From Maribacter algarum (ex Zhang et al. 2020) (GTDB lineage Bacteria > Bacteroidota > Bacteroidia > Flavobacteriales > Flavobacteriaceae), in contig NZ_VATY01000002.1 in NCBI RefSeq assembly GCF_005885635.1, positions 124,001-188,000 on the forward strand: a DNA stretch of 64,000 nt, read 5' to 3'. Shown one piece after another: positions 5,285 to 37,941 of this stretch. Both the position numbers and the translations under genes were made by a program. The notes below the pieces were generated by a model that did no database searches, was not told the origin of the DNA, and saw only the letters and a list, made by a program, of their open reading frames with translations. Each line of letters starts with the position of its first letter. The stretch's first letter is position 1.

Positions 5285-5335
5285 TTGCGGGTCTTACAAA
5301 TATATGTATTTTTGGTAAACCAAACTGGTTAACCA
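5285..5335 (+). promoter_or_regulatory. Promoter with double AusR-type operator, PL6 operon (and possibly the divergent pair)
   Basis: TTG at 5285-5287, 19 bp, then TATTTTTG at 5307-5314 fits the Bacteroidetes TTG/TAnnTTTG promoter. Two operator copies, TGGTAAACCA (5313-5322) and TGGTTAACCA (5326-5335), start 13 bp apart and overlap the -7 box. On the minus strand a perfect TATATTTG (5304 to 5297) could serve the isomerase/RraA operon from the same site. Confidence 0.8.
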
Positions 5336-5408
5336 ATTTTTGAATTTGAATTGTTAATTTATACTGTTAATATAATTCTCTTAAAACGAAGAATATACCT
5401 CATAAAAA

Positions 5409-7730
5409 ATGAAGAAATCATTAACTGTTATTGCGCTACTTTTTTTATTTCTGGCGTGTAGTGAAAAATCAAATTTAAATGCCATCAAGGTAAATAATCC
5501 AGATGAGCTAACTAAAGCTATAGATAGTGCCAAAGCCGGAGATAACATTGTGTTAGCGAATGGAATTTGGAAAGACGTTCAAATAAAATTTAGAGGAAAA
5601 GGGACAAAAGATAATCCCATAACAATTTCTGCTGAAACGCCTGGCAAGGTTACTATTGAAGGGCAATCTTATTTAAAATTTGGAGGGGAATATTTAGTGG
5701 TAGAAGGGTTGTACTTTAAAAATGGATTTTCACCATCTAATGCAGTCATCGATTTTAAAATAGGCCATAAAGATGCGCCAGATGAAATTTCAAACAACTG
5801 CAAAGTCTCCAATTGTGTAATAGAAGATTTTAATAAGCCTAAAAGGGATGATAGTGATTTATGGGTCCAGTTTTGGGGGCGACATAATGAGTTGAGCAAT
5901 TCTTACATCGCAGGAAAAACAAATAGAGGTCCAACCGTAAGAGTTAGTATAGCGGGTATTGAAAGCATAAACAATTACCATCAAATCATAAACAATCATT
6001 TTGGCCCACGTCCAGTTAAAGGTGGTCCAAGTGGAGAAACTATTCAATTAGGTGATAGTTACACGTCTATGTCGCCAAGTCATACAACAGTTGCCAATAA
6101 TTTGTTTGAAGAATGCAACGGAGAAGTAGAGGTTATTTCGAGCAAAACCAATTTCAATGTATTTAAAAATAACGTGTTCTATAAAAGTGAAGGTTCTTTA
6201 GTAACTCGACATGGTAACTACGTTTCGGTAGACGGAAATTATTTTATTGGAGATGGTGTCAACGAAAATTATGGGGGAATTAGAATCATTAATACGGGCC
6301 ATTGGGTAGTCAATAACTATTTCTATGGACTAAAAGGAAAAAGCTTTAGAAGTCCGTTGGCAGTAATGAATGGTATTCCCAAGTCTCCATTAAACCGGTA
6401 CAATCAAGTAACCGATGTAGTGGTGGCTTATAACACTTATGTTAACTGTGCCTCGCCTTGGCAATTTGGTGTTGGGCAAAATTTAGCCCAATCTGATGTG
6501 TTGCCAAAATCTGAAATCCGTTCGGCTAGGGCAATTAGAACTACAGTTGCTAATAATATTGTATACAATGAAAAAGGTCTGGAATCTATTGTAGTTGAAA
6601 ATGATAAAGCAGATGGTGTAACCTTCAAAAATAACATCATCAATAATCAAGGTGTGAAATTTAAAGATTTTGACGGAGGTATAACTGAAGCTTCATTAGA
6701 GCTCAGACCGTTAACTGATAATATATTCATTCCTGTAGGAATACCCGATGATTTTGAAGCTTTTGAGGGCTTTGATTTTAATACGATTGAAACTGATTTA
6801 TTGGGAGTTTCTAGAAAAGAGGACAAGAGCATTGGCGCTATAACAGGTAAAAATGTTTCCAACCCAAATATTTTAGATAAAACAAAATATGGTGCTTCTT
6901 GGTATTCTAATGAAGTTGAGGCAAGAGAACCGGTAACACATGTGGTAACTAAGGCTGAAGAATTACAGACGAAACTAAATGAAGCCAGTAATGGGGATAT
7001 TATTGCGTTATCTGCAGGAGTATATACAGTAAATGAATCTCTGGTAGTTAATAAATCAATTACCATTCAATCTGAAGGAAAAGCACAGCTTGTTTATGCG
7101 GGATTAGCGAATACCCCATTATTTTCATTACAACCTTATGGAAAGTTAACCGTAAACAATGTCGTTTTAAAAGGAAACGATTCGAATTATGCTTTTGCTA
7201 GTTTAAAAGAAAATATGTCCAACCATTTTGGCTTAACGGTTACTAATACTGAAATCAGCAATTTTAACTATGTCTTGAAGGCTTATAAAGAATCTTTTGC
7301 TGAACGCATAACTTTTGAAAATACTTCGATTTCTAATTGTGAAAACGGCATAGAATTATCTGAAGAAAAAAATGACAAAGGCGATTATAACACAGAATAT
7401 TTAACCATTAACAGCTGTAATTTCGACAACGTTAAACAAAACGTTGTCGATTATTACAGAGGTGGCTATGATGAGTCTACCATTGGTGGCAACCTTTTGG
7501 TAACTAATAGCACATTTACGAATTGTGGCGCAAAAGAGAAAAACAAAAGGTTACTAAACCATAACGGAATTATAAATGTGAACATCACTAAAAACACATT
7601 CAAAAACAATGCAGTACAATTTGTATCTATTTTATGGGGAGCAAAAAATAACGTGGAATCTGAAAACAGTATAACTAATTCAGGGCAACTAAAAACGGAA
7701 GAAAATTTAGTGATGAAATTAATGTACTAA
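5409..7730 (+). CDS. PL6 alginate lyase, two-domain lipoprotein
   Basis: 773 residues, a parallel beta-helix lyase of family PL6 (chondroitinase-B fold) that cleaves alginate, often G-rich or MG. The lipoprotein signal is MKKSLTVIALLFLFLACSEK with Cys17. The N-terminal catalytic domain starts with the VNNPDELTKAIDSAKAGD region. It carries the catalytic Lys in ISSK (K246) and Arg in VTRHG (R267), with the 21-residue spacing found in characterised PL6 enzymes such as AlyGC. The second half (from about 510) is a further beta-helix repeat domain with NITKNTF-like turns, giving the full two-domain architecture rather than the short PL6 form. It opens an operon 78 bp downstream of a double operator, with a PL7 lyase 25 bp behind it. 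Likely outer-membrane anchored. Confidence 0.92.
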   Translation: MKKSLTVIALLFLFLACSEKSNLNAIKVNNPDELTKAIDSAKAGDNIVLANGIWKDVQIKFRGKGTKDNPITISAETPGKVTIEGQSYLKFGGEYLVVEGLYFKNGFSPSNAVIDFKIGHKDAPDEISNNCKVSNCVIEDFNKPKRDDSDLWVQFWGRHNELSNSYIAGKTNRGPTVRVSIAGIESINNYHQIINNHFGPRPVKGGPSGETIQLGDSYTSMSPSHTTVANNLFEECNGEVEVISSKTNFNVFKNNVFYKSEGSLVTRHGNYVSVDGNYFIGDGVNENYGGIRIINTGHWVVNNYFYGLKGKSFRSPLAVMNGIPKSPLNRYNQVTDVVVAYNTYVNCASPWQFGVGQNLAQSDVLPKSEIRSARAIRTTVANNIVYNEKGLESIVVENDKADGVTFKNNIINNQGVKFKDFDGGITEASLELRPLTDNIFIPVGIPDDFEAFEGFDFNTIETDLLGVSRKEDKSIGAITGKNVSNPNILDKTKYGASWYSNEVEAREPVTHVVTKAEELQTKLNEASNGDIIALSAGVYTVNESLVVNKSITIQSEGKAQLVYAGLANTPLFSLQPYGKLTVNNVVLKGNDSNYAFASLKENMSNHFGLTVTNTEISNFNYVLKAYKESFAERITFENTSISNCENGIELSEEKNDKGDYNTEYLTINSCNFDNVKQNVVDYYRGGYDESTIGGNLLVTNSTFTNCGAKEKNKRLLNHNGIINVNITKNTFKNNAVQFVSILWGAKNNVESENSITNSGQLKTEENLVMKLMY

Positions 7731-7755
7731 CAGATTCAAGAAAATCTATTTTAAA

Positions 7756-8781
7756 ATGAAGAATGCAGTCTTTACCGTGATTATACTTTTAGGACTAGTT
7801 GCTTGTAAAAACAATTCTAAAGCTACTTCTGAAGCAACTGATAAGAGTGAAGTTGAAAAAAAATACCCAAGTGATGTTATTCCGTTTATGGATGAATGGA
7901 AAATTCTTTGTGGAGATGGTACACGTTCTGAAGATTTGATGAATTTTGAAAAGAAAGACTTTTTCTATGTGGAAAATGATGGAGAAACCCATTGGGTCGT
8001 GTATAAAACTCCGAACGCCGGAATTACTTCAAGAACTTCAAGCAACACACGAACAGAGCTGGGTCAAAAAACACATTGGATTCCTGAAACGGGTGGCAAA
8101 CTAAAAGGGACTTTAAAAGTAATGCATGTGTCGACTACCGGAGATGCTACCAAAGCTTCATCTTTTTCAACCGTTATCGGACAGATACATAGTGATGAAG
8201 GGCATGAAAATGAACCCTTGAAAATCTACTATAAAAAATTTCCTGGCCATGAAAAAGGGTCCGTCTTCTGGAACTATGAAATCAATACAGAAGGAGATAA
8301 TATCGGACGATTTGATTATTCTACCGCCGTTTGGGGTTATAATTTTTCTGATGTTGGTTCAAGTGCGAATGAATATCCGAAAGAACCTGAAGATGGCATT
8401 GCTTTAGGCGAAGAGTTTAGTTATGAGGTAAACGTTTACAAGGGTATGATGCATTTGACTTTTACCACCGAAGGACGTGAGGTAAAAAAATTCGCAAAGA
8501 ACTTATTGAAATCCGATTTTGCGACTAGAAAAGATATTCCAGAACAGGTACTGAAAGTATACGCAAATAGAGAAAAAGGTGGTGGCGTAGAACGTGATAC
8601 CGCCTATGCCGGCGAGATTCAGTATTTTAAGCAAGGTTGTTATAATCAAGCGAATGCCAAGTCCACCAACTCAGAAATTTATGGTGGCGACATTGCCAAA
8701 CAATATGCCAACGGTAGTTATGCTGAGGTTTGGTTTAGAGAAGCTACGGTAGGAGCGGCGACTGAGCCTACACGGAATTAA
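7756..8781 (+). CDS. PL7 alginate lyase, lipoprotein
   Basis: 341 residues with lipoprotein signal MKNAVFTVIILLGLVACKN. PL7 catalytic motifs are complete: RTEL with R99, QIH with Q143 and H145, and KQGCYNQ with Y296. Insertions such as the FPGHEKGSVFWNYEINTEG block (about residues 158-176) and the long C-terminal part make it larger than a minimal PL7 jelly roll; it resembles the exolytic AlyA5-type enzymes of Zobellia (family inference, not proven). It is clearly paralogous to the lyase at 17460, sharing that block and the EPEDGIALGEEFSY stretch. Second gene of the PL6 operon. A hairpin immediately follows its stop, before the symporter gene. Confidence 0.9.
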   Translation: MKNAVFTVIILLGLVACKNNSKATSEATDKSEVEKKYPSDVIPFMDEWKILCGDGTRSEDLMNFEKKDFFYVENDGETHWVVYKTPNAGITSRTSSNTRTELGQKTHWIPETGGKLKGTLKVMHVSTTGDATKASSFSTVIGQIHSDEGHENEPLKIYYKKFPGHEKGSVFWNYEINTEGDNIGRFDYSTAVWGYNFSDVGSSANEYPKEPEDGIALGEEFSYEVNVYKGMMHLTFTTEGREVKKFAKNLLKSDFATRKDIPEQVLKVYANREKGGGVERDTAYAGEIQYFKQGCYNQANAKSTNSEIYGGDIAKQYANGSYAEVWFREATVGAATEPTRN

Positions 8782-8803
8782 TTTCCTCGCTAAGCGAAGA
8801 AAT
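8781..8803 (+). repeat. Intercistronic inverted repeat between PL7 and symporter genes
   Basis: ATTTCCTCGC (8781-8790), loop TAA, GCGAAGAAAT (8794-8803): a 10-bp stem with one C/A mismatch that begins at the last base of the PL7 stop codon. There is no T tract, so it looks more like an mRNA-stability or processing hairpin than a terminator. Confidence 0.5.
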
Positions 8804-8826
8804 GAAAATAATTGAACCAGCCACAT

Positions 8827-11819: not shown

Positions 11820-11833
11820 AAAAATAGCTCAAA

Positions 11834-12973: not shown

Positions 12974-12985
12974 ACCCGCAACCCT

Positions 12986-17350: not shown

Positions 17351-17401
17351 TTGTGAGTCTTACAATTATGTGTATTTTTGGTAAACCAATCTGGTAAACC
17401 A
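17351..17401 (+). promoter_or_regulatory. Promoter with double AusR-type operator, PL7 gene at 17460
   Basis: TTG at 17351-17353, 19 bp, TATTTTTG at 17373-17380; operator copies TGGTAAACCA at 17379-17388 and 17392-17401, 13 bp apart. The surrounding sequence closely resembles the PL6 promoter at 5285 (TTGnGnGTCTTACAA-like), suggesting a shared origin. Confidence 0.82.
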
Positions 17402-17459: not shown

Positions 17460-18566
17460 ATGAGAATCAAAATATCCAATTCCAGTATTTACATCAGTAC
17501 GATAGTGACAAGTATAATGCTGCTATGCTCTAGCTGCGGCGATAAAAACAAAAAAGAAAACCTTGAAAGGGATTCAGATAATACGGCTGGGGTTACCAAA
17601 GCGAATGATGTTATACCTTTTTTCCAACATTGGAATTTAATCTTAGGCGACGGTTCTAATGCTGGTCAGGCGGTTGACTACGAGCATAAGGATTTCTTCT
17701 ACACCACAAATGATGACAATAGTGACTGGGTCGTATTTAAAACACCAAATGGGGGAGACACTCATGGCACCTCTAACAACACAAGAACCGAATTGGCACA
17801 GGTAAAAAAATGGTATCCGAAAACTGCCAATGATAAATTGTCCGCAACACTCAAGGTAATGAACGTATCTGCTACTGGTGATGCTCGTGTAGCTTCAACC
17901 TATTCGGTAGTGGTCGGACAAATACACAGTGCGAATGGACATGAGAACGAGCCGTTAAAAATATTTTACAAAAAATTTCCGGGGCATGAAAAAGGCTCTG
18001 TATTTTGGCATTATGAGATAAATACAGAGGGGGGTGATAATTCCGGGAGATGGGATTTTTCCTCAGCAGTTTGGGGGCATGACTTTTCGGTTGTTGGGGC
18101 GGAAGCAAACACCTACCCTGAAGAACCTGAAGACGGTATTGCTTTGGGAGAAGAATTTAGTTATCAAATTGAGGTTAAGGATGGTATGATGAACTTATAT
18201 TTTTCTAGTAAAGGTCATGAAACCAAAACGTTTACAAAGAACTTAGTTGAATCAGAATACACTACAACTGATGATATGCCTGAGCAAACAAGAAAATTAT
18301 TTGTCCCAATTGGGCAAGATGGGGTAGAGCGTTCAACTGCATATTCAGGTGAGGGTTTATTTTTTAAATTGGGTTGTTACAATCAAACAAATGGAAAATC
18401 CCCAGAAGAAAATCAAAATTGGTGTTCGGGTGCAGAAACGCATGGTGGGGACATTCAAAAACAATATGCAGACGGAAATTATGCGGAAGTATGGTTTAAA
18501 ACTGCCGATATATCTATAAGTGATGCTGCCGTTTCCAATGAAGGTTATTTCCTTAAAAATGACTAA
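17460..18566 (+). CDS. PL7 alginate lyase, lipoprotein
   Basis: 368 residues. The N-terminal signal ends MLLCSSCGDKNKK, a lipoprotein. PL7 catalytic residues are present: R109 in TRTEL, Q154 and H156 in QIH, Y307 in LGCYNQ. It is the paralogue of the lyase at 7756: both have the FPGHEKGSVFW and EPEDGIALGEEFSY stretches and a C-terminal GGDIQKQYADGNYAEVWF-like end. It is monocistronic or leads into the PL17 operon, which has its own operator 25 bp after this stop. Likely an outer-membrane or periplasm-facing lyase for oligoalginate; exo action is suggested only by likeness to AlyA5-type enzymes. Confidence 0.9.
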   Translation: MRIKISNSSIYISTIVTSIMLLCSSCGDKNKKENLERDSDNTAGVTKANDVIPFFQHWNLILGDGSNAGQAVDYEHKDFFYTTNDDNSDWVVFKTPNGGDTHGTSNNTRTELAQVKKWYPKTANDKLSATLKVMNVSATGDARVASTYSVVVGQIHSANGHENEPLKIFYKKFPGHEKGSVFWHYEINTEGGDNSGRWDFSSAVWGHDFSVVGAEANTYPEEPEDGIALGEEFSYQIEVKDGMMNLYFSSKGHETKTFTKNLVESEYTTTDDMPEQTRKLFVPIGQDGVERSTAYSGEGLFFKLGCYNQTNGKSPEENQNWCSGAETHGGDIQKQYADGNYAEVWFKTADISISDAAVSNEGYFLKND

Positions 18567-18589: not shown

Positions 18590-18618
18590 TATATTTGGTC
18601 AGCCAGATTGGTTAACCA
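18590..18618 (+). promoter_or_regulatory. Promoter with double AusR-type operator, PL17-kdgF-SDR operon
   Basis: TATATTTG at 18590-18597 with operator copies TGGTCAGCCA (18596-18605) and TGGTTAACCA (18609-18618), again 13 bp apart. No clear TTG at -33. The second copy ends 20 bp before the chosen ATG at 18639, so the 5' leader is very short. Confidence 0.78.
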
Positions 18619-22943: not shown

Positions 22944-22985
22944 TATATTTGGTCAACCAAATTGGTTAACCAGTATGGAAAACCA
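22944..22985 (+). promoter_or_regulatory. Promoter with triple AusR-type operator, SusC1 operon
   Basis: TATATTTG at 22944-22951, then TGGTCAACCA (22950-22959), TGGTTAACCA (22963-22972) and TGGAAAACCA (22976-22985), exactly 13 bp apart. With the start expected a few bp past the -7 box, the array covers about the first 30 transcribed bases. Confidence 0.85.
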
Positions 22986-23061
22986 ATTTTAATTACTCAA
23001 AAACCTAGCTACTAACTATAACTAACTCAATGAACAAATAACACTTCACAAAAACAAAAAA

Positions 23062-23117
23062 GACGGGTGAATGCCCATCACTCAAGACTAGATTACTTCA
23101 CTCTGAAGGGAAGTAAT
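23062..23117 (+). ncRNA. SusC1 5' leader with two hairpins (candidate RNA element)
   Basis: The expected leader is about 320 nt. Hairpin 1: GACGGG (23062-23067) with CCCATC (23074-23079), 6-nt loop, one C/A mismatch. Hairpin 2: ATTACTTC (23092-23099) with GAAGTAAT (23110-23117). Both recur at the matching place in the SusC2 leader. Function unknown. Confidence 0.45.
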
Positions 23118-23281: not shown

Positions 23282-26200
23282 ATGAATTTAAAAAAGAATT
23301 TAATGCTTATTGCGATGTTGTGTATCAGCATGGCAATGTTTGCTCAAGACAACTATACCTTGTCGGGCACAACTGCTGATGAGGCAGGTGTACCTGTTCC
23401 TGGGGTCAATGTTGTTATAGTAAACACCACGACCGGAACATCTTCCGATTTTGATGGTAATTTTGAGATTTCGGTTTCTGATGGAGACGTGCTTCAATTC
23501 ACTTCTCTAGGGTTCGAAAGTCAACTAATCGCGATAAGTGGTCAGACTAACCTAAATGTGGTTATGATAGAAGACGCAGCCCAACTAGATGAGGTTGTTG
23601 TGGTAGGTTATGGCACCCAGAAAAAGTCAACTGTTACCGGGTCGATTTCCAAGGTAGTAAATGAAACTTTGGATCAGATTGCTGTATCAAGGGTAGACGA
23701 TGCTCTTATCGGTCAGGTTTCCGGTGTAAACATTCAGGCTACAAATGCTGAAGCCGGTGGAGCACCAACAATTACCATTAGGGGTGTTGGGTCAATTGCT
23801 GCGGATTCAGGTCCGGCATTGGTTGTTGACGGTATTGTTGTAAGTTCAGAATTTCTTGGAAATCTTGACATGAACGACGTAGAGTCTTTTGAAGTTTTAA
23901 AAGATGCTGCTTCGGCTGCAATTTATGGTAGTGAAGGTGCAAACGGGGTCATTTTAATTACTACTAAAAGTGGTAAGGCCGGAAAAACAAAATTCAGTTA
24001 CCAAACCTACACTGGATATAAGCAGGCACATGGTAGTGATGATTACAGAAAGGATATTGACGAGTGGTTTAAACTTGAACAATCGGTTGCTGGCACGCTT
24101 TCCGAAGAATCACAATATATTAAGCTTTTGGTAGAAACAACCGGAGTAAATAGAGATTGGCAAGATGTTTTCTTTGATGGAGGTAATGTTATTAGTCATT
24201 CGCTATCTGCAAGAGGGGGAACGGAGGATACCAAGTTTAGTACTTCCTTGAGATACCTCCACGATGAAGGTGTTGTGATAACTGACGATTACAAATTGTA
24301 TACTGGTAATATAAAGATCAATTCGAAAATTGGTAAAAAGGCTAAGTTTGGTGTTAGTATTACTCCTTCTTATACCAAGCAAAGACGTTTACCAACATCG
24401 ATTCACAATCCAACGCGTCAATCACCTTGGTTGCCTATCTATCATACGGAAGAATCATTGCAGTTTATTAATCGTGATAATTACCCAAATGTTGGTGTCG
24501 GGGATTACTTTTTGGAAAATCATTTAGTTGAATTGGATTTAGATGGAGATGGTAGTGATTCCAGACCCCGTACATCTGGTGATTCTAATCCGTACCAACA
24601 ATATGTTGAGAGAGAACATTACGATGTTAACACTAAACTATTCGGCTCAACATACTTGAGTTATGAAATTATAGATGGTCTGACAGCAAAAACATCTTTG
24701 GGTGTAACTATCGATCAGAGAAAACAAACAAGATGGGATGGCACCAATTATCACGCAGCTGGTGCAAGTAGATCTGCTTATGGGTTGAATAATAGATATA
24801 GAACAAGATTGATTAATGATAACACCCTAAATTATACTAAGAATTTTGGCGATCATGATCTTAATCTATTAGGAGGTGTAACCATTCAGAAAAGAAGAGC
24901 TGAGTTTAGCACCGTAACTAGCAGCGGTTTTACCGATGATCGACTTAAGAACATAAATGGAGCTAATCCTGAAAATACTATTGTAACAGAATTTAATACA
25001 AACCGTAGTAAGTTGGGATTTTTTGCAAGAGTTAATTATTCTTTTGCAGATAAGTATTTATTCAATGCATCCTTTAGACGAGACGGTAGTTCAGTATTTG
25101 GTGTTGACTCCAAATGGGGTAATTTCCCTGCTGTATCCGTAGGTTGGAATGTCGCCAAAGAAAATTTCCTGGCAAATAGCGATTTTGTTAGCAATCTGAA
25201 GTTTAGAGCTAGTTATGGACTTACAGGTTCTGAGAATTTCAATGTTGGAAACGCTCTTACAAATGCATGGCCTTATCTAGCGTTGAATCAAAATACGAAC
25301 TACGGTACCACGCAAGGCGCTTCCCCACTTAATATTGCAAATCCTGATTTGCAGTGGGAAGCTTCCAAAGAATTGACCATAGGTTTAGACTATGGGTTTG
25401 CAGGCAATAGAATATCAGGTTCAATTGATTATTATCAAAGGAATAGTGATGAGTTGCTTTTGAACAACCCCGTTTCATATCTTACTGGGTTTAACCAAGG
25501 TATTGTAAACTTAGGTGAAGTTCAAAACAGAGGATTGGAATTTGAATTAAGAACAAGAAACATTGTTACCGAAAATTTCAGATGGAATTCTACATTGATC
25601 GCCTCAACTAATCAAAATGAACTATTGAGTTTTGGTGATTCCAATAACGCCTTAATTTCAGATACCTATGGTAGAAACTCACAATGGATAAACCGAATAG
25701 GTGAACCTATTTCTTCTTACTGGGGCTTTGTTGTTGACGAGGAGCGTTTTGATGAAACTTCTTTTAGAACAACTTATGTTAACAGCCCGTGGAATAGAAT
25801 AAACGGGGAGTCTAGAGCAACAATTGTAAAAGACTTAAACGGCGACGGTTTAATTACTGATGAGGATAAAACCATTTTAGGAGATCCTTATCCAGATTTG
25901 GTATATAGTTTTACCAATGATTTTAAATTTGGTGACTTTGACTTTTCCTTTATGGTACAAGGGAGTCTTGGTGCGCAGGTAAATAATATTGGTGATGAAT
26001 ACTTCTTCAATTGGTTTGGGAATACCACAAGAGGTACAGGTGCTCAGGAAGCTGTAGCCGATGGTCTTGTGCCCGATGTGTCTTTCATTCAAAGAAAGGT
26101 GGTAACTAGCGATGTTATTGCCAGTGCAGACTACTTTTCTTTGAGAAATGTAAACTTGGGATATAACTTCTCAAAGGATCTCATATCCCGAATAGGATTG

Positions 26201-26374
26201 GATGGTTTAAGACTTTATGCTACTGGGCAGAATTTATTATACATTACTGCTGATGATTATCACGGTTTTAATCCAGAGCATGATGACAACGGTAATGTAA
26301 GGGCGTTTGGATCACAAAGAGCAGGTACGCCGATATTCAAAACATTTACAGTTGGTATGAACATTGACTTTTAA
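23282..26374 (+). CDS. SusC-like TonB-dependent outer-membrane transporter, 1
   Basis: 1030 residues. A type I signal peptide ends MAMFAQDN. Domains in order: carboxypeptidase-like regulatory domain (about 25-100, GTTADEAGVPVPGVNVVI, DFDGNFEI), the SusC signature DEVVVVGYGTQKKSTVTGS near 112-130, the TonB plug (LKDAASAAIYGSEGANGVILITTKSG) and a long C-terminal barrel ending in NIDF, the terminal aromatic expected of outer-membrane proteins. It imports alginate oligosaccharides together with the SusD partner 19 bp downstream. First gene of an operon SusC-SusD-PKD-PKD-PL7 driven from a triple operator. Confidence 0.95.
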   Translation: MNLKKNLMLIAMLCISMAMFAQDNYTLSGTTADEAGVPVPGVNVVIVNTTTGTSSDFDGNFEISVSDGDVLQFTSLGFESQLIAISGQTNLNVVMIEDAAQLDEVVVVGYGTQKKSTVTGSISKVVNETLDQIAVSRVDDALIGQVSGVNIQATNAEAGGAPTITIRGVGSIAADSGPALVVDGIVVSSEFLGNLDMNDVESFEVLKDAASAAIYGSEGANGVILITTKSGKAGKTKFSYQTYTGYKQAHGSDDYRKDIDEWFKLEQSVAGTLSEESQYIKLLVETTGVNRDWQDVFFDGGNVISHSLSARGGTEDTKFSTSLRYLHDEGVVITDDYKLYTGNIKINSKIGKKAKFGVSITPSYTKQRRLPTSIHNPTRQSPWLPIYHTEESLQFINRDNYPNVGVGDYFLENHLVELDLDGDGSDSRPRTSGDSNPYQQYVEREHYDVNTKLFGSTYLSYEIIDGLTAKTSLGVTIDQRKQTRWDGTNYHAAGASRSAYGLNNRYRTRLINDNTLNYTKNFGDHDLNLLGGVTIQKRRAEFSTVTSSGFTDDRLKNINGANPENTIVTEFNTNRSKLGFFARVNYSFADKYLFNASFRRDGSSVFGVDSKWGNFPAVSVGWNVAKENFLANSDFVSNLKFRASYGLTGSENFNVGNALTNAWPYLALNQNTNYGTTQGASPLNIANPDLQWEASKELTIGLDYGFAGNRISGSIDYYQRNSDELLLNNPVSYLTGFNQGIVNLGEVQNRGLEFELRTRNIVTENFRWNSTLIASTNQNELLSFGDSNNALISDTYGRNSQWINRIGEPISSYWGFVVDEERFDETSFRTTYVNSPWNRINGESRATIVKDLNGDGLITDEDKTILGDPYPDLVYSFTNDFKFGDFDFSFMVQGSLGAQVNNIGDEYFFNWFGNTTRGTGAQEAVADGLVPDVSFIQRKVVTSDVIASADYFSLRNVNLGYNFSKDLISRIGLDGLRLYATGQNLLYITADDYHGFNPEHDDNGNVRAFGSQRAGTPIFKTFTVGMNIDF

Positions 26375-30225: not shown

Positions 30226-31137
30226 ATGAAAAGTTTCCGAAAAGGACTTTTAGTATGTACAGTACTAATGTTCGTATCTGTCAACGCTACTTCTCAAAGT
30301 AAGAAAAGTAGCGTTACAGCATCGGAAACAAGAGTTGAAAAACCTAAAAAAAGAAAAAGGAAAGTAAAACTTCCTGAAATTGATTTAAGTAATTGGAAGG
30401 TTACCATACCAGCAGGTGAGGGAAAAGGTGGTGCAACCAGCATTGAACCGCCAGCGATTTTGGATTATGCCAATAATGATGTCCTAAGGCCATTTATGTA
30501 TAATGATTCTGCTTCTGGAGCTTTAGTATTTTATGCCTACCCAACCGATGCGACCACTGCTAACACGAAGTATTCTCGGACAGAACTTCGAGAACAAATG
30601 GAACCCGGAAACGACAAAGTTAATTGGACATTTGCTGAAGGAGCTAATCTAAAGGCAAAAATGGCAATGGATGAGGTTTCAAGAGCAGACGATGGAAAGT
30701 ATCATAAGGTAATTATAGCACAGATACATGGTCGATTAACAAATGAACAGCGTGAATTGATAGGGCAAAAAGACAATAATGCTCCACCTATTTTAAAAAT
30801 TTATTGGCAAAATGGAAAAATCCGAGTAAAAACCAAGGTTTTGAAATATGCTGGTGTTAATCAAAAAGGCATCCTATATAAGGAGGCATGGACTGATGAC
30901 GAAGGCAAAAATTTTGAACAGGAAGTTGGCTTCAGAAAATTTGCGCTTGAGATAAATGTTACGGATGGAAAAATGGTAGTGTCATTAAATAAGCATGAAT
31001 TTTTTGTTTATGATAGTGCTAGTATTAAAAGATGGGGAGTTTTTGAAAACTACTTTAAAGTTGGAAATTATTTTCAGTCAAGAGACAAGGGAGCCTTTGC
31101 AAAGGTAAAGCTCTATGAACTCAGTGTAAATCATTAA
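30226..31137 (+). CDS. PL7 alginate lyase, secreted (non-lipoprotein)
   Basis: 303 residues from ATG 30226. The signal MKSFRKGLLVCTVLMFVSVNATSQS lacks a lipobox Cys at the right place, so type I cleavage and periplasmic or secreted location are likely. A basic linker KPKKRKRKVK (about 41-50) precedes the PL7 domain. Catalytic residues: R118 in SRTELRE, Q166 and H168 in AQIHG, Y282 in FKVGNYFQ, where the motif is KVGNY rather than KAGVY, as in a different PL7 branch from the other three lyases here. It is last in the SusC1 operon. A decayed copy of the same gene follows about 175 bp downstream. Confidence 0.9.
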   Translation: MKSFRKGLLVCTVLMFVSVNATSQSKKSSVTASETRVEKPKKRKRKVKLPEIDLSNWKVTIPAGEGKGGATSIEPPAILDYANNDVLRPFMYNDSASGALVFYAYPTDATTANTKYSRTELREQMEPGNDKVNWTFAEGANLKAKMAMDEVSRADDGKYHKVIIAQIHGRLTNEQRELIGQKDNNAPPILKIYWQNGKIRVKTKVLKYAGVNQKGILYKEAWTDDEGKNFEQEVGFRKFALEINVTDGKMVVSLNKHEFFVYDSASIKRWGVFENYFKVGNYFQSRDKGAFAKVKLYELSVNH

Positions 31138-31311
31138 TTGTGTTGGTGAATGGTTTTGAAAAAGTTCATAGGTAAAACTTCCATGAATCAAATAGCTTCT
31201 AGCCTTGAGTTATTTTCAGTTTTTTTCATAATCATACGTCCTTTACGGAAATGACAAAAAAAGGTGTAGTAGAAAAGAAATGCCAGAGGTACTAGTTGAT
31301 ACAGATAATCC

Positions 31312-31586
31312 TATCAAGAAGAATCATCATTTGTACTTCTGGAAATTGATTTAAATAACTGGAAGGAAACATTATTACCTAGTACTGAAAACAGAAAACT
31401 AATCAGAGTTGAACCGCTAGAAATATTGAATTACGTTGCCATTGAGGTTTTAAAACCTTTGACGATATTCACATAGTAAAATGGGTTGTCCTTGAAAATT
31501 ATTTTAAACTAGGAAATTATTTTTAAACAACGGACTCTGAAGCCTTTTGCAAGATTAAATTTTATGATTTATTGATTCAATATTGA
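31312..31586 (+). pseudogene. Decayed, internally deleted duplicate of the PL7 gene at 30226
   Basis: From about 31342 a frame reads LEIDLNNWKETLLPSTEN, IRVEPLEILNYV, EVLKP and then a stop near 31474. This aligns with PEIDLSNWKVTIPAGEGK, TSIEPPAILDYANNDVLRP of the intact PL7. It resumes as VKWVVLENYFKLGNYF, a stop, then AFCKIKFYDL, matching IKRWGVFENYFKVGNYFQ and AFAKVKLYEL at the C-terminus. About 150 central residues, including the Arg and Gln-His catalytic motifs, are deleted and the rest has stops, so it is non-functional. It evidences a past tandem duplication of the lyase gene. Outer limits are approximate. Confidence 0.82.
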
Positions 31587-31653
31587 AAAGTAAGCTCGCA
31601 TAGCTAAGGCTATTAATAGGTAATTTATAGAGTTGTTTGAGTTAGTTTTTTAA

Positions 31654-31689
31654 GACATCTAGCCGGTCTATATGACCGGTAATGATGTC
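31654..31689 (+). terminator. Hairpin terminator downstream of the SusC1 operon
   Basis: Nested inverted repeat: GACATC (31654-31659), CCGGTC (31663-31668), loop TATAT, GACCGG (31674-31679), GATGTC (31684-31689), preceded by GAGTTAGTTTTTT. The same GAGTTAG...CCGG hairpin arrangement occurs at 37785-37830 before the second GntR gene. The T tract after it is poor. Confidence 0.55.
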
Positions 31690-31753
31690 ATTAACTTTAG
31701 GGAAGGTGATTTATAACTATAATTTAGCTCCTTTTGACCTAAAGGTCTGGCTC

Positions 31754-31775
31754 AATAAGGTTTTAGCCTTATTTT
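31754..31775 (+). promoter_or_regulatory. Hairpin just upstream of GntR gene 1
   Basis: AATAAGG (31754-31760), loop TTTTAG, CCTTATT (31767-31773), then TTT. A 7-bp perfect stem followed by T residues 43 bp before the start codon; it could be a terminator or attenuator. The following TTTTAACCAATTAACTGG resembles only a degraded operator half-site. Confidence 0.45.
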
Positions 31776-31817
31776 AACCAATTAACTGGGATAGCAAATC
31801 GAAACTAATATCTATTT

Positions 31818-32522
31818 ATGAAGATTGAAATACTAACACGACCTGAAAATCAAGAAATTCAAACTGACATCATTACCAAAATTAGGGATTTGATGAATTA
31901 CAAAAATCTTGAACCGGGGGACAAGCTACCTTCAGAGCGAATGCTATCTGAGAAATTTGGTGTTAGTAGAAGTAATGTTAGAGAGGCCATTCAAAAACTG
32001 GAATTTTATGGTTTACTAACGTCCAAGCCTCAAAGTGGCACTTTTGTAGCAGATATTGGTCAAGTAGCCATGAATGGTATGATGGAGTATATTTTAAGAT
32101 TAGAGGAACCGGATTTCAAGTCCTTGGTGGAAACTAGAATTTTACTTGAATTAAAGACTGTGCGGTTAGCTGCTCTAAGGAGGACAGAAGAAGATTTGAT
32201 ACAATTGAAGAAAGCTTTAGAGGCTTATGCTGAAAAAGTTGAAAATGGAGAAGATGCGGTACAGGAAGATTTGCTTTTTCATTTAGCAATTGCAAAAGCA
32301 AGCGGCAACAGTACAATGAATACTTTTATGTTAATTATTACCCCTGAGATTATAACTAAGTTTGAAGAGCACCATGTTTGTGACAAGGGTTTAGCATTTT
32401 CAGGAATCAAAGAACATCAAGATATATATGATGCAATAAAAGACCAAAAGCCCAAATTAGCTAAAGAAAAAATGAAGGTGCATTTTAAGACACTATATCA
32501 ATATTGTTATAATATAGATTGA
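31818..32522 (+). CDS. GntR-family (FadR/FCD) regulator 1, AusR-like
   Basis: 234 residues. N-terminal winged helix (about 15-78: KLPSERMLSEKFGVSRSNVREA, with HTH 40-60) and C-terminal FCD ligand domain with the expected metal/ligand set D151, H155, H200 and H222. It closely resembles the type of regulator (AusR) shown in Zobellia to repress alginate genes by binding one to three operator copies, released by alginate breakdown products. About 31 differences in 233 positions separate it from the copy at 37968 (near 87 percent identity by eye), and the helix-turn-helix differs at only three sites (M/Q42, K/R46, S/T52), so both probably see the same operator. It lies between the SusC1 operon and SusC2. 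Its own promoter has no clear operator. Confidence 0.88.
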   Translation: MKIEILTRPENQEIQTDIITKIRDLMNYKNLEPGDKLPSERMLSEKFGVSRSNVREAIQKLEFYGLLTSKPQSGTFVADIGQVAMNGMMEYILRLEEPDFKSLVETRILLELKTVRLAALRRTEEDLIQLKKALEAYAEKVENGEDAVQEDLLFHLAIAKASGNSTMNTFMLIITPEIITKFEEHHVCDKGLAFSGIKEHQDIYDAIKDQKPKLAKEKMKVHFKTLYQYCYNID

Positions 32523-32903
32523 GAAAATTAAAGATAAGATTGTACGATTTTCATTTTTCATATTAATAAGATAGATATGTAATTGTTGACTGTACAAATT
32601 CTAAGGTTATTAAACGTTCACTACTATTTCCAAAACATTCGCCAGTCTTCAAGTTTCTTTCAGCAAAGACAGCTCTAAGTCATAAATGTCAATTGAGGTT
32701 ATTCAAATACTAAGGTTTGCTTAGCCTTAGAAATACCTCCTATAATTCGAGCAAATACATAATCTCAAGAAGGGAATTAACTTTGAATATCTCAAATATA
32801 CCTAGTTGAGGTTTTCGTAACTCAATGACTACCTTATTGTTAGGTTCTCAAAAATTCAAATCATAAAATTGAAAATTAATTTTTATTTAACAAACTAATA
32901 ACA
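32523..32903. other. Region between GntR gene 1 and the SusC2 promoter
   Basis: No gene seen. The start (32530-32580) resembles the sequence after the second GntR gene (38690-38730; shared AAAGATAAnATTGnACGATTTT), marking the duplicated unit. From 32831 the sequence is nearly identical to that upstream of SusC1. Confidence 0.6.
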
Positions 32904-32958
32904 TATATTTGGTAAACCAAATTGGTTAACCAGTATGGAAAACCAATATGGATAACCA
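32904..32958 (+). promoter_or_regulatory. Promoter with quadruple AusR-type operator, SusC2 operon
   Basis: TATATTTG at 32904-32911, then four operators in a strict 13-bp period: TGGTAAACCA (32910-32919), TGGTTAACCA (32923-32932), TGGAAAACCA (32936-32945) and TGGATAACCA (32949-32958). The first three align base for base with the SusC1 array; the fourth is extra. Confidence 0.85.
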
Positions 32959-33030
32959 ATTTGTAGACGATCTTATACTAATGAACTCTAATCAAAAAAC
33001 GCTAATGAAATAGTAAACTAACTGCACAAA

Positions 33031-33090
33031 AAAAGGACAGGTGCACGCCTATCCTTTTAAACAAATTACTTCAGTTTGAAGGGAAGTAAT
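33031..33090 (+). ncRNA. SusC2 5' leader with two hairpins (candidate RNA element)
   Basis: Hairpin 1: 33031-33041 pairs with 33048-33058 (AAAAGGAcAGG/CCTaTCCTTTT) around loop TGCACG, with a C/A mismatch at the same place as in the SusC1 leader. Hairpin 2: ATTACTTC (33065-33072) with GAAGTAAT (33083-33090). About 155 nt before the start codon in a leader of about 325 nt. Confidence 0.5.
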
Positions 33091-33245
33091 ACGATATGAC
33101 ACCATTAATGCCATAATCGTCAAATTTATAATAAAATTTGAATTCTAAGAATAGGCATCTATGGCAAATTGCATTAACATAAACAGGAATTGTTAAAATG
33201 TTAAAAAGTAAAATTGACTAACTATTTATCTAAAACTTAAATTTT

Positions 33246-36200
33246 ATGAAGATTACGTTATTAAAAAGGCTGTTATTGTTTGGAGCACTTATTTGTCTCT
33301 CCGCTGTTTCGGCTCAGACGGTATCGGGTACGGTTGCTGATTCTAGTGGCCCATTGCCTGGGGCGAGTGTAGTGGTTAAAGGAACCACCAATGGTACACA
33401 GACCGATTTCGATGGGAATTATTCCATAGACAATGTTGGCAGTGGAGCTACCCTAGTATTTAGCTACATCGGATACGCTAATCAGGAAATCGCTGTTGGC
33501 GGTCAAAACACTATTAATGTAGTTCTGGCAGAGGATGCTAGCCAACTTGAAGAAGTTGTAGTAGTAGGTTATGGAACACAAAAAAGAGCAAACATATCTG
33601 GTTCGGTCGCTAAAGTCGGAGGTGCTGAAGTTGCTGCGATTCAAGCAGCGCGTGTCGACGATGCTTTGGCGGGTAAGTTACCAGGGGTATTGATTCAAAA
33701 TCAAAGTGGTGAACCAGGTGCAGATCCAAAGATTCAAGTAAGGGCAGCATCATCACTCTCAGGAGACTCAAGTCCCCTAATTGTAGTAGATGGATATCCT
33801 ATTTCCGGAAGTCTAGCTACAGTGAATCCAAATGATATTCAAAGTTTGGAGGTTTTAAAAGATGCCGCTTCGGCAGCTATTTATGGATCTAGGGGTGCAA
33901 ATGGTGTTATCTTGGTAACTACCAAAAAAGGTAGATCAGGTAAAGCGAATTTTAGTTATAACGCATACACAAGCTTCTCACAAAAATATGTAAAGGACAT
34001 TGAAATGCTTAAGACGGCTTCAGAATGGGCCGATGAATTGGAAACAAGTGCCTACGACCTTTCTGAAGTGGATCCCGGTTTGTTGAATTATAGACTTAAC
34101 GCTCTTAGAAATGCTCCTGATGTCGTAAGTATGGAAGATTGGCTTTTTCAAAATGGTAATACCCAAAGTCATGACTTTAGTGTAAGTGGTGGTAGTGAAG
34201 ATTTAAGAGCTTTCGCTTCTGTTGGTTATCAGAATACCGAGGGTATCGTAAGAGGACAAGGCTTTGAAAGAATCAATGCACGTTTGAACGTCGATGCCAA
34301 TTTAGGTGAAAGAATCCAAGCCGGAGTTAATTTCAATGGATTCTATGGTAAGCAAGATATTGTTCCGCATGATATGAGGGACCTCTTAAGAGCATATAGT
34401 ATTCATCCAATTTACCATACTCAGGCGTCTATTGATTTCGTACAACAATTGGATGCTCAAAGACAGGCTCTGTTCGATGCAACTGGAGGGGCGAATATTC
34501 CAGGTGCTTTTTCTCAACCCTTTGATAATGGATATAGGGGAACGGGCAATATTAACTCCAGTATATTTACCCTACAACCTGGCGATATTGCGCACGAATG
34601 GCATTATGGTAGAGCTCAAAATGGTATCGGGGGGTCAGGAGATGCAGGTCCGGCGGCAAAATTTGACAATGCACGCAGATACCAAACGACATATTTTGGT
34701 AACGTAAGCTCTTATCTCCAATATGAGATTTTAGATGGGTTGAATATCAAAACCGTTCTGGGTGGAGATTTCAGGGATACTGAGACCTATTATTATCAAG
34801 GAACTTTGGCGGATGCTCGCGAACGTACGAATCAATCTGATTTGGATATCTCCAATATAAGAAGATCATCGGTTTTAAGTGAGACAACCTTGAACTTTGC
34901 CAAAGTGATTGGCAAACATGATATAGCAGCAGTAGCTGGATTTGAATTTCAAAATAATTATATTAAAGGAATAAGTTCCACCGGAACGAATGTGCCAATT
35001 GGTCTTCCTCAAAATTATGGACTGTTTGCCCCTGAAGATGTAATTTCAGTAGAGACAGACGCGACCATATCAAGAAGGAGTGTATTTGGTAGAGTTAATT
35101 ATGCCTTTGACAATCGTTATTTATTAACTGCATCGATAAGAAGAGACGGTGATTCACGTTTTGGGGCAAACAATAGATTCGCAACATTCCCTGCCCTTTC
35201 TGTAGGTTGGAACATTCATAATGAATCTTTTCTAAAGGATAATGAAACACTCAGCCAATTCAAATTGAGGTTTAGTACAGGTTCCTTAGGAACTACGTCC
35301 TTCTTAGGTCCATACAATGCACTGAGCTTATTAGGAGCGGCACCAACTGCCAATGGAACAGGATTTCTTATACCCAATGATGTGGCTAACCCAGATTTAA
35401 CTTGGCAAACCAATACGGAAACGAACTTTGGTGCTGATTTAGGTTTTTTCAACAATCGTTTAAGAATTGGGGTAGATTATTACACGTCTGATATTGAAGA
35501 CATGTTAATCAACCAAAGTGTATCTGAAGTTTTCGGTACGCCTTCTGTAGTACTAAACCGTGGTAATATAACAAGTTCTGGTTTAGAATTGGATTTAAAT
35601 GCCAGTATTATCCAAGGGAGCGATTTGTCTTGGAGCGTAGGTGCTAACATATCTACAGTTAATCAGGAAATAACTAGCCTAGGTGATTTGGACGAACTCC
35701 CTCGAACAGTTTACGGTGGACCGAGTGGTAGAGGCCCAGAGTTTAGAAATTATGTAGGCGGAGAACTTGGAGAAATGTGGGGTTATGCAGTTACTGGAGA
35801 AGTAGAAACCATACATATTGCTGATCCGTCAAGAAATATTGGATTCGGTAGCTCGGAATGGTACGTTGTAGACCAAAATGGTGATGGCGAAATTACATAT
35901 GAAGGTGATTATGTCAAATTAGGATCTGCTACTCCAGATTTTTACTATGGTATTACAAGTAATTTGAACTATAAGGCTTTTGATTTGTCACTACAGTTCC
36001 AGGGGTCACAAGGAGCGGAGGTTTATAACATCGATCCGATTTACTGGAAATCACAATTTGGTGGTAGAGTACGTGATAGTTTTGACGCTGATGGTGATGG
36101 TATTGCAGATGCGAATGGCCAACATTATGTTCAGACTAGAAATGCACATGGTTCAGGTATTCAAGATGCTTCTTACTTTGCATTGAGAAATCTGACTTTA

Positions 36201-36431
36201 GGGTATACCGTTGATTCGGATGTGACGAGCAAAATAGGTCTTAGTTCTTTAAGGATCTATGCTGCTGGTACCAATTTATTATATCTATTTGGTGATAATT
36301 ATACCTCGTTTAACCCAGAAGGTGTTGAAACAACCAATGGAGGGTATTTAGGCCCTACGACCTACGGGTACCAAGAAGGTGCGAGCCCGATTGTAAGAAG
36401 CTTTACGCTTGGTTTGAATGTTAATTTTTAA
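33246..36431 (+). CDS. SusC-like TonB-dependent outer-membrane transporter, 2
   Basis: 1061 residues with signal LICLSAVSAQTV. Carboxypeptidase-like domain (about 24-100; GPLPGASVVVKGTTNGTQTDF), SusC signature LEEVVVVGYGTQKRANISGS (about 101-120), plug with VLKDAASAAIYGSRGANGVILVTTKKG, and a barrel ending GLNVNF. It is clearly diverged from SusC1 over the barrel although the two promoters are nearly identical, suggesting different oligomer preference. SusD2 follows after 2 bp. Under a quadruple operator. Confidence 0.95.
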   Translation: MKITLLKRLLLFGALICLSAVSAQTVSGTVADSSGPLPGASVVVKGTTNGTQTDFDGNYSIDNVGSGATLVFSYIGYANQEIAVGGQNTINVVLAEDASQLEEVVVVGYGTQKRANISGSVAKVGGAEVAAIQAARVDDALAGKLPGVLIQNQSGEPGADPKIQVRAASSLSGDSSPLIVVDGYPISGSLATVNPNDIQSLEVLKDAASAAIYGSRGANGVILVTTKKGRSGKANFSYNAYTSFSQKYVKDIEMLKTASEWADELETSAYDLSEVDPGLLNYRLNALRNAPDVVSMEDWLFQNGNTQSHDFSVSGGSEDLRAFASVGYQNTEGIVRGQGFERINARLNVDANLGERIQAGVNFNGFYGKQDIVPHDMRDLLRAYSIHPIYHTQASIDFVQQLDAQRQALFDATGGANIPGAFSQPFDNGYRGTGNINSSIFTLQPGDIAHEWHYGRAQNGIGGSGDAGPAAKFDNARRYQTTYFGNVSSYLQYEILDGLNIKTVLGGDFRDTETYYYQGTLADARERTNQSDLDISNIRRSSVLSETTLNFAKVIGKHDIAAVAGFEFQNNYIKGISSTGTNVPIGLPQNYGLFAPEDVISVETDATISRRSVFGRVNYAFDNRYLLTASIRRDGDSRFGANNRFATFPALSVGWNIHNESFLKDNETLSQFKLRFSTGSLGTTSFLGPYNALSLLGAAPTANGTGFLIPNDVANPDLTWQTNTETNFGADLGFFNNRLRIGVDYYTSDIEDMLINQSVSEVFGTPSVVLNRGNITSSGLELDLNASIIQGSDLSWSVGANISTVNQEITSLGDLDELPRTVYGGPSGRGPEFRNYVGGELGEMWGYAVTGEVETIHIADPSRNIGFGSSEWYVVDQNGDGEITYEGDYVKLGSATPDFYYGITSNLNYKAFDLSLQFQGSQGAEVYNIDPIYWKSQFGGRVRDSFDADGDGIADANGQHYVQTRNAHGSGIQDASYFALRNLTLGYTVDSDVTSKIGLSSLRIYAAGTNLLYLFGDNYTSFNPEGVETTNGGYLGPTTYGYQEGASPIVRSFTLGLNVNF

Positions 36432-36433
36432 AA

Positions 36434-37771
36434 ATGGAAAAAATGAAATATATATCTATAGTAATTGCATCGTTGTTTTTGATAACAGCATGTGATAATG
36501 ATTTAGATCAAATACCTCCTAAACAAATCGAAGCATCGAATTTGACGGATTATAATGGAGCCTTGAATGCTGCATATCATTATCAAACAGGTACACCCAC
36601 ACCATTGGCAATAATGGGTGATTTTAGAGCTGACAATATGTTAATGGACGAAGAACCTTATCCTGCATTTGACAGATTCAATTCCGATTTGGCTGGTGGA
36701 GATTTAGTAGAGCAATTTTTTCGCCCATTCTATAGCAATTTGTACAAGGCAATCTTAAGTGCAAATAATGTTATTAATAATTCATCAGATGCCACTCAGG
36801 TCGCTGAAGCTCGGTTTTTAAGAGGTTTATCATACTTTAAGCTTGTAATGGTCTTTGGTGATGTAACCGTGAATTTATCGGAGTCTCCAGATACATCGGA
36901 CTCATCTATTTTAGTGAGACAGGCGGCTACTGAGGTGTACAATAGTGTGATTATTCCTGACTTACAAGCTGCAGCATCTGGTTTGGACAATTCTGGAGTT
37001 TCGAACGGACGTGTGTCTCAGATTGCAGCTCGAGGTTTTCTTGGTAAAGTTTACATGTATAGAGGTGATTATAGTAGTGCCGCTACCGAGCTGGCAGCAG
37101 TTATCAACACCGCTGAGGCTGCAGGTGTTAGTTTAGAAACCGACATTGCTAATGTTGTAGCTGATGGTAATTCGGAAGTACTTTTTGCGACATCAAGGTC
37201 GAGTTCTATTCCTAGCGTTTACACCGCTGGTACTGGTTTTCCAGGATGGTTTAGTGGAGGTGACACAAAATCTCTTACACCGCTAGATCCAGATTTGGTC
37301 GCTGCCTTCGATGCTGTCGCCAATGATACACTGGTCGGTGGCGATTTAAGAAGAGCTTTAACAATTGATGAAGGAGCAAGTATAGGGCTGAAATACCCCG
37401 AAAATCTTGAACAGGATTTCATAGAAATGAGATTATCTGATGTCATTCTTATGTATGCTGAGGCATTGAACGAAACAGGTTCATCGGCAGCTGAAGTCTT
37501 AGGTCTTTTAGATGATATAAGAACTCGTGCGGGATTAAATGCTTTGGATCCAGCAGCCATTAATACCCAAGCTTTGGTTAAGCAGGCTTTAGCTGACGAA
37601 AGAAGATTGGAATTGGCCTTTGAAGGTCACAGATGGTTTGATTTGGTGAGAACCGGTACCGTTGATGCTGAAATGGGAGAGACTATTAATAGTAATTATC
37701 ATGTATTTCCAATTCCAAATTCGGAAGTATTAGCAAGCGGTGGAGCAATTACCCAAAACCCAGGATATTAA
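36434..37771 (+). CDS. SusD-like surface glycan-binding lipoprotein, 2
   Basis: 445 residues with lipoprotein signal SIVIASLFLITACDNDLDQIPP. SusD/RagB landmarks: ARFLRGLSYFKLVMVFGDV near 120-138, SDVILMYAEALNE near 335 and DERRLELAFEGHRWFDLVRTG near 393-413, ending ITQNPGY as in SusD1. It is shorter than SusD1. Unlike the SusC1 operon, no PKD or lyase gene follows; the transcript probably ends at the hairpin at 37803. Confidence 0.95.
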   Translation: MEKMKYISIVIASLFLITACDNDLDQIPPKQIEASNLTDYNGALNAAYHYQTGTPTPLAIMGDFRADNMLMDEEPYPAFDRFNSDLAGGDLVEQFFRPFYSNLYKAILSANNVINNSSDATQVAEARFLRGLSYFKLVMVFGDVTVNLSESPDTSDSSILVRQAATEVYNSVIIPDLQAAASGLDNSGVSNGRVSQIAARGFLGKVYMYRGDYSSAATELAAVINTAEAAGVSLETDIANVVADGNSEVLFATSRSSSIPSVYTAGTGFPGWFSGGDTKSLTPLDPDLVAAFDAVANDTLVGGDLRRALTIDEGASIGLKYPENLEQDFIEMRLSDVILMYAEALNETGSSAAEVLGLLDDIRTRAGLNALDPAAINTQALVKQALADERRLELAFEGHRWFDLVRTGTVDAEMGETINSNYHVFPIPNSEVLASGGAITQNPGY

Positions 37772-37802
37772 AATTGTTAGTTGAGTTAGTTTTTTGAAGA
37801 AT

Positions 37803-37838
37803 TTACCGGTCTGATTTTCTGGGCCGGTAAGTTTTCTT
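37803..37838 (+). terminator. Terminator after SusD2
   Basis: TTACCGG (37803-37809) and CCGGTAA (37824-37830) around a 14-nt loop, followed by GTTTTCTTT. Positional and sequence counterpart of the hairpin at 31654, with the shared upstream GAGTTAGTTTTTT. Confidence 0.7.
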
Positions 37839-37912
37839 TATCTCAAAAATTAGCATTATGGTCTTGGTTTTTAACAAATAGGTGAATAATTTTTTTACTT
37901 AGGTATTTTTCA

Positions 37913-37941
37913 TAGTTTTAACAAACCAATCTGGTTAACCA
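37913..37941 (+). promoter_or_regulatory. Promoter with one good and one degenerate AusR-type operator, GntR gene 2
   Basis: TAGTTTTA (37913-37920), an imperfect -7 box, then TAACAAACCA (37919-37928, degraded left half) and TGGTTAACCA (37932-37941), keeping the 13-bp spacing. It lies 27 bp before the ATG and suggests weak autoregulation. Confidence 0.65.

Follow-up and report, generated by a model that had tools for sequence, protein, structure and literature searches.

Putative AusR-type operator arrays of 13-bp pitch and an adjoining susC leader element in the alginate loci of Flavobacteriaceae

Introduction

The 64-kb stretch of the Maribacter algarum genome analysed here (contig C12, positions 124001–188000, hereafter the window; genome of 5.1 Mb in 20 contigs) carries an alginate locus in which 10-base units resembling TGGTnnACCA stand in short arrays at several promoters. 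Which regulator do these arrays serve, why are the units repeated at a fixed pitch, and does the number of copies differ from operon to operon with any regularity? We find that the arrays recur at alginate loci of many relatives together with one type of GntR/FCD protein, and that copy number follows the class of the gene downstream. The arrays are very probably the operators of an AusR-type repressor.

The AusR operator system of Zobellia galactanivorans was reportedly described by Dudek et al. in 2020 in Nucleic Acids Research (NAR). According to the excerpted text of three papers (PMC7874173, PMC8286568 and PMC8073546), AusR binds single, double or triple operators, alginate intermediates prevent this binding, and a duplicated AusR at one locus occurs in some Zobellia. 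The range of one to three copies that the original prediction ascribed to Zobellia agrees with the excerpt of PMC7874173.

Operator arrays of the alginate locus

The window contains five full arrays (2, 2, 2, 3 and 4 copies) and one half-degenerate pair (Table 1), with every unit at the position given by the original prediction. The prediction also counted six promoters, which is right for the five full arrays; the sixth, the promoter of a GntR gene, carries one and a half copies. There the box TAGTTTTA is altered in its last letter, and the half-lost copy is without its left half but retains the right half ACCA.

Matches to TGGTNAACCA with at most one mismatch number 48 on both strands of the window, against a mean of 17.1 and a maximum of 30 in 100 dinucleotide shuffles. 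Units of at least 8/9 letters that lie 8–40 bp apart show spacings of 13 (8 pairs), 26 (3) and 39 bp (1) only, so that the exact 13-bp pitch proposed earlier holds. The suggested scan of the whole genome at this spacing also bears out the proposal: TGGNNNNCCA-N3-TGGNNNNCCA has eight matches, all eight inside the window, and the reversed control pattern has one. The arrays are confined to the alginate locus. As was foreseen, the first unit covers the end of the -7 box of flavobacterial sigma-A promoters, with TAnnTTTG ending on the first two letters of unit 1 in all five full arrays. A chance origin is ruled out by the shuffles, the whole-genome count and the pitch across genomes described below.

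The composite pattern TANNTTTGGTNNACCA has five matches without mismatch in the genome, four of them in the window arrays and the fifth (C14:370857) inside a 540-aa reading frame that we take to be a transporter. With up to one mismatch there is no excess over the reversed control in the whole genome (22 + 31 versus 26 + 36 matches), so single-copy targets elsewhere in the genome cannot be claimed.

Recurrence across Flavobacteriaceae

We searched 397 Flavobacteriaceae genomes for paired units and for proteins like the second GntR protein of the window. The pattern TGGTNAACCA-N0-30-TGGTNAACCA is present in 100 of them (reversed control in 4/397), and among the matches listed the gap is nearly always 3 bases, although 0–30 were allowed. 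The protein (E ≤ 1e-40) is found in 103. Pair and protein occur together in 94 genomes, the protein alone in 9, the pair alone in 6 and neither in 288 (Fisher p 2e-72, with genomes treated as independent). Among the pair-only genomes with a listed match (all but G356), three have longer gaps (G196, G216 and G386), one has a 12-bp pitch (G193) and one has its 13-bp pair inside a reading frame (G154). Neither paired sites nor an AusR-like protein is present in G050 and G270, the only further members of the window's genus in this sample, and the alginate locus is thus not fixed in the genus. In a wider set of 296 Bacteroidota genomes, the composite of a -7 box and two units occurs in seven, each of which belongs to the 30 genomes from the window's family (0/266 elsewhere).

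Pitch and register were then compared in 80 named loci, the best 80 of 343 found around AusR-like genes (1.56 Mb in all). These loci include no Zobellia record and are unevenly spread, with many from Maribacter and Arenibacter, so that array rows are not independent. They contain 160 pairs of units at 13 bp, 64 at 26 bp and 4 at 39 bp, while every other spacing up to 45 bp occurs at most twice; a 13-bp pair is present in 71/80 loci. From the window and these loci we gathered 131 arrays without requiring a promoter. In 124 of the 131, TAnnTTTG lies at -6 from unit 1, its last two letters being the first two of the unit; other upstream offsets occur at most twice each. A T-rich block, TTT(T/G), stands at -29 to -26 relative to the first unit. 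According to PMC9723704, the -7 box of Flavobacterium psychrophilum spans positions -12 to -5 relative to the start site. By analogy, transcripts would start 5 nt past the G of TAnnTTTG, and copies 1 to 4 would occupy -6 to +4, +8 to +17, +21 to +30 and +34 to +43 from the start site.

Spacers are also alike from unit to unit. The first spacer is mostly ATC, AAT, ATT or AAC, and ATTT follows the last unit in 50/120 arrays. This recurrence suggests a full site of perhaps 16 bp whose flanks are shared, which could account for the 13-bp pitch better than helical phasing. The original prediction had proposed that dimers wrap around the helix; this geometry is a matter of arithmetic, a step of 13 bp overshooting a complete turn by about 86 degrees, and does not count as evidence.

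Copy number and gene class

Of the 131 arrays, 127 pass a box filter (at least 5/6 letters), and removal of three duplicates leaves 124 rows: 73 at susC, 25 at lyase and 18 at ausR genes, four labelled susD and four others. The last two groups were excluded from the comparison of 73 susC with 43 lyase or ausR arrays; the four susD rows, all from Arenibacter, have degenerate units apparently within susD and look like false positives. The 18 ausR rows were required to have a first copy of at least 6/8 letters, and the half-lost ones were counted separately. At least three copies are present in 61/73 susC arrays versus exactly two in 42/43 lyase and ausR arrays (Fisher p 1.7e-19, rows not independent). 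By named genus, with the window counted as well, the median for susC is two copies in five, three in fifteen and four in one (the window), and that for lyase and ausR is two in all 12 of these groups having any. Within single loci, susC has more copies than lyase or ausR in 25/29, as many in three and fewer in one.

The ausR promoters have a form of their own. Among 83 ausR genes examined, 31 have a unit of 7 or 8 of 8 letters beside a neighbour that matches at 5/8, typically as TTTAACAAACCA-ATC-TGGTTAACCA, the form seen in the window. The neighbour matches at 6/8 in 12 others, at 8/8 in six and at 4/8 or fewer in 16, and 18 genes have no unit. Thus the half-lost copy, though commoner at ausR than any other form, is not universal. 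Its standing as TTTAACAAACCA beside an intact copy looks as if weak autoregulation were selected.

The copies within an array also differ from each other: copy 1 is TGGTAAACCA in 80/120 arrays, copy 2 is the perfect palindrome TGGTTAACCA in 55/120, and copy 3 is more varied. The frequent perfect palindrome suggests that copy 2 nucleates binding. Four-copy arrays are rare, being found at susC2 of the window, in loci L075 and L084 and in two further genomes of the 397 (the four-copy pattern used matched 3/397). We considered a link between the fourth copy and a second GntR gene and rejected it: L084 has two regulators, but L075 has only one, and G019 has a single regulator match with a stop codon inside.

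The two regulators and a proposed mechanism

Both GntR/FCD proteins of the window score above the curated domain cut-offs (67.2 and 70.0 bits for the N-terminal GntR winged helix, cut-off 27; 87.1 and 93.9 bits for the C-terminal FCD domain, cut-off 24.3). Arg 41, 51 and 55 do not vary among 18 aligned sequences, both window regulators included, and are presumably equivalent to the DNA contacts of FadR. Among proteins of solved structure, those closest in sequence include PdhR (1e-19), NanR (9e-16) and other GntR proteins, with FadR more distant. The N-terminal extension of about 32 residues known from NanR is absent, the GntR domain starting about residue 15 after the ATG, and any cooperativity here would therefore need another contact.

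The gene of regulator 2, with its own one and a half copies, is probably autoregulated. Regulator 1 has no unit of at least 7/8 letters within 260 bp upstream; L084 has the same arrangement, and a duplication beside susC2 is possible. Two regulator copies within the fetched stretch occur only in the window and L084 of 81 loci, and Kriegella aquimaris and Arenibacter catalasegens have two AusR-like copies on separate contigs.

A model consistent with these features is as follows. Each 10-bp palindrome most likely takes one regulator dimer. Copy 1 would lie over the start site and the last letters of the -7 box, with copies 2–4 in the first transcribed bases. Dimers bound to the array would then block either the binding of RNA polymerase or its leaving. 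A product of alginate breakdown presumably binds the FCD domain and releases the repressor. The graded copy number (often 1.5 at ausR, 2 at lyase operons and usually 3–4 at susC) would most likely set a rising tightness of repression. The original prediction held that copy number sets repression strength; the way in which copy number varies with gene class across genera favours this only indirectly.

Weighing the alternatives

The assignment to an AusR-type repressor is strongly supported by the co-occurrence in 397 genomes, the overlap with the -7 box, and the place of the arrays at alginate operons and at the promoter of a GntR gene. The step taken by the original prediction, from this type to the operator of Zobellia itself, goes further, and the window regulator would be the counterpart of Zobellia AusR. 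Several points weigh against our interpretation. In nine of the 103 AusR-positive genomes the strict pair pattern is missing. The link between the sites and the GntR protein is drawn from co-occurrence and location, and because operators and regulator share one gene cluster, part of the co-occurrence could reflect joint inheritance. The named loci, as the best 80 of 343, are a sample biased towards close relatives. Finally, 12 of the 73 susC arrays have only two copies (named genera Psychroserpens, Kordia, Polaribacter, Lacinutrix and Oceanihabitans), and copy-number grading is therefore not universal.

The shared cluster leaves room for the arrays to be bound by a different regulator, from this locus or from another part of the genome, while the GntR proteins act on something else. 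We consider this extremely unlikely, since 65/83 ausR genes have a unit of at least 7/8 letters within 260 bp upstream (a few of these looking like chance). TGGT...ACCA half-sites are moreover typical of FCD-type GntR proteins, and the AusR of the published excerpts is itself a GntR protein whose operators come in several copies. Pitch and copies could also have spread when a promoter stretch was simply duplicated in tandem, with no role for copy number, and the similar spacers and the resemblance of promoters within a locus are what this would leave behind. Such an origin is nonetheless highly unlikely: most named genera show a copy number that goes with gene class, many relatives share the half-lost first copy before ausR, and copies 1 (TGGTAAACCA), 2 (TGGTTAACCA) and 3 (varied) differ, unlike recent duplicates.

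Where the array would act is a separate matter. Copies 2–4 lie downstream of the predicted start site, as would suit a roadblock or dual control that does not depend on covering the -7 box. This seems unlikely, given that copy 1 overlaps the -7 box in 124/131 arrays and that AusR is a repressor in the published excerpts; a mixture of covering and roadblock is possible. Repression by an AusR-type protein at the -7 box remains our preferred interpretation of the arrays.

Comparison with known systems

TGGT...ACCA half-sites are shared with the operators of FadR, PdhR and LldR, which are likewise GntR/FCD proteins; in their sites TGGT is separated from ACCA by three bases, in contrast to the two found here within 13-bp arrays. 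The locus resembles that of Zobellia AusR, as excerpted, in having a GntR-family regulator in an alginate locus, several operator copies per promoter and alginate genes as targets. It differs in that one window array, like those of L075 and L084, has four copies rather than one to three, and in that the window has two regulators, 87% identical. According to PMC8012715, three dimers of Escherichia coli NanR bind (GGTATA)3 cooperatively through a 32-residue N-terminal extension. NanR is also a GntR/FCD protein with closely spaced repeats at a catabolic promoter, and its dimers sit side by side; however, its repeat sequence is different, its dimers are about half a turn apart, and the extension is missing here.

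None of the papers listed in searches for AusR and its operator was seen to print the operator sequence, and part of the present layout may already be published. The operator is most likely of a known kind, that of an AusR-type repressor, with a layout here that is fixed throughout the family and a copy number that is graded. A model of alginate control from a single species would thereby become a rule readable from sequence in dozens of marine genera: finding TAnnTTTGGTnnACCA with 13-bp repeats behind it would lead to the regulon. This recurrent grading, weakest for the regulator, intermediate for the lyases and tightest for the importer, offers a testable design of how genes are ordered within a polysaccharide locus.

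A conserved susC leader element

The leaders behind the 73 operator-bearing susC promoters are about 180–325 nt long. Their alignment (69 distinct of 73, with weak rows in L074, L083, L110 and the first copy of L116) reveals a shared element, AAAAAAAGGA-YRGG-tgcacg-CCY-ATCCTTTT, followed by a second hairpin (ATTACTTC...GAAGGGAAGTAAT). Changes affecting both partners are seen at least once in six of the ten predicted pairs; one pair is A-U in 40 and G-C in 26 of 69 leaders, and the covariation term of the alignment is small (-0.39). As in the window, a second susC is present in locus L116 (10941–11131), likewise with the leader element and there with a 3-copy array.

A covariance model of the element has six matches with E ≤ 10 in the window genome. 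The leaders of the two alginate susC genes account for two of them (E 6.7e-9 and 4.5e-5), and the next (E 0.33) lies between two reading frames, which we read as rplQ and carA. Two more are minus-strand matches at or beside these places, and the last is at C14:213219 (E 5.1). We rejected the element as a general susC feature, as in the window genome only the alginate susC leaders are matched confidently. Among 149 genomes of the family the model matches 27, all 27 AusR-positive, with one match each and two in the window's own genome; these genomes may include species that went into the model, and the count takes matches at any position, whether or not before a susC gene. Ten of the 37 AusR-positive genomes have no match, under filters that lose weak ones; the count of 37/149 takes the genomes as G000–G148, with negatives partly unlisted. 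Rfam has no match in the window at the gathering cut-off. Of two weak Rfam matches in 32900–33260, the better is a minus-strand Bacteroides small RNA (BTnc231, 18.4 bits versus a cut-off of 80.4), and neither was counted.

Features of the minus strand point to a possible antisense RNA. TAnnTTTG occurs on this strand 30–42 nt after the second hairpin in 53/73 leaders, against 5% in shuffles and one leader for the plus strand. The A run before the hairpin (median 7) is longer than the T run (median 4), which gives the longer U tail to the minus strand. The predicted RNA would be 79–106 nt long (median 95). For susC2 the minus-strand RNA folds better than 200/200 shuffles (z -4.8), and the plus strand does likewise to a lesser degree (z -2.9). 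No -33 motif for the antisense promoter is evident in the susC leaders, and the susC1 leader of the window has no exact antisense -7 box. The predicted RNA would resemble the DonS family of Bacteroides susC genes (PMC7366714 and PMC11697453), reported at 78–128 nt in PMC7366714, in its length and in being antisense to a susC leader. Unlike DonS, it is known from prediction only, and it belongs to Flavobacteriaceae alginate loci, beside an AusR-type array.

An upstream open reading frame of 2–13 codons ending -4 to 14 nt from the hairpin is present in 60/61 leaders with at least three operator copies, compared with 17% in shuffles, and each of the three stop codons is used; a narrower test gives 50/61 versus 13%. 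By contrast, 10 of the 12 two-copy leaders have no such frame, and their hairpin starts soon after the operator.

These features suggest, with about even chances, that alginate susC operons are gated in two or three ways: by AusR-type arrays at the start site, by a DonS-like antisense RNA of about 95 nt, and by an upstream reading frame whose stop abuts a terminator-like hairpin. It is also possible that the leader is a plain attenuator on the plus strand. Among the matches listed in a literature search on such features, seen as excerpts, there is no flavobacterial alginate example. The susC leader is a more novel lead than the operator, and it raises the question whether, next to a defined repressor, marine Bacteroidota also use control by RNA.

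Features and further observations in the window

The alginate locus encodes lyases of the PL6, PL7 and PL17 kinds, sodium symporters, two SusC/SusD pairs, a PKD protein, the two GntR/FCD regulators, an MFS transporter, SDR enzymes, a pfkB-family kinase and a KDPG/KHG-aldolase family protein. The PL-family and pathway names are those we presume from family knowledge.

Table 1. Positions of operator arrays, regulator genes and predicted susC leader features, numbered from the first base of the window
Feature	Position	Strand	Remarks
-7 box TATTTTTG (5307–5314) and 2-copy array (5313–5322, 5326–5335)	5307–5335	+	Upstream of PL6 lyase gene 5409–7730 and genes after it
-7 box TATTTTTG overlapping 2-copy array (17379, 17392)	17373–17401	+	Upstream of PL7 lyase 17460–18566
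-7 box TATATTTG overlapping 2-copy array (18596 with one mismatch, 18609)	18590–18618	+	Upstream of PL17-type lyase, cupin and two SDR genes
-7 box TATATTTG overlapping 3-copy array (22950, 22963, 22976)	22944–22985	+	Upstream of susC1 23282–26374
susC1 leader element: predicted micro upstream reading frame 23030–23041, hairpin from 23055, second hairpin 23092–23117	23030–23117	+	60.3 bits versus 86.1 for susC2
GntR/FCD regulator 1	31818–32522	+	87% identical to regulator 2
-7 box TATATTTG overlapping 4-copy array (32910, 32923, 32936, 32949)	32904–32958	+	Upstream of susC2 33246–36431
Predicted micro upstream reading frame (ATG AAA TAG) in susC2 leader	33005–33013	+	Ends 14 nt before hairpin
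susC2 leader element: terminator-like hairpin 33028–33058 and second hairpin 33065–33090	33028–33090	+	Longer U run on minus strand
Predicted DonS-like antisense RNA, about 89 nt	33028–33116	-	TAnnTTTG on minus strand at 33121–33128 (CAAATTTA on plus)
Weakened box TAGTTTTA (37913–37920), half-lost copy 37919–37928 and perfect copy 37932–37941	37913–37941	+	Promoter of GntR gene 37968–38669
GntR/FCD regulator 2, AusR-like	37968–38669	+	ATG chosen from homologues; open reading frame listed from 37947

Two isolated perfect units, at 33707 and 40888, lie within reading frames and look like chance matches. Between the PL7 lyase and regulator 1, about 680 bp (31138–31817) are without a listed open reading frame of 100 aa and may hold gene remnants.

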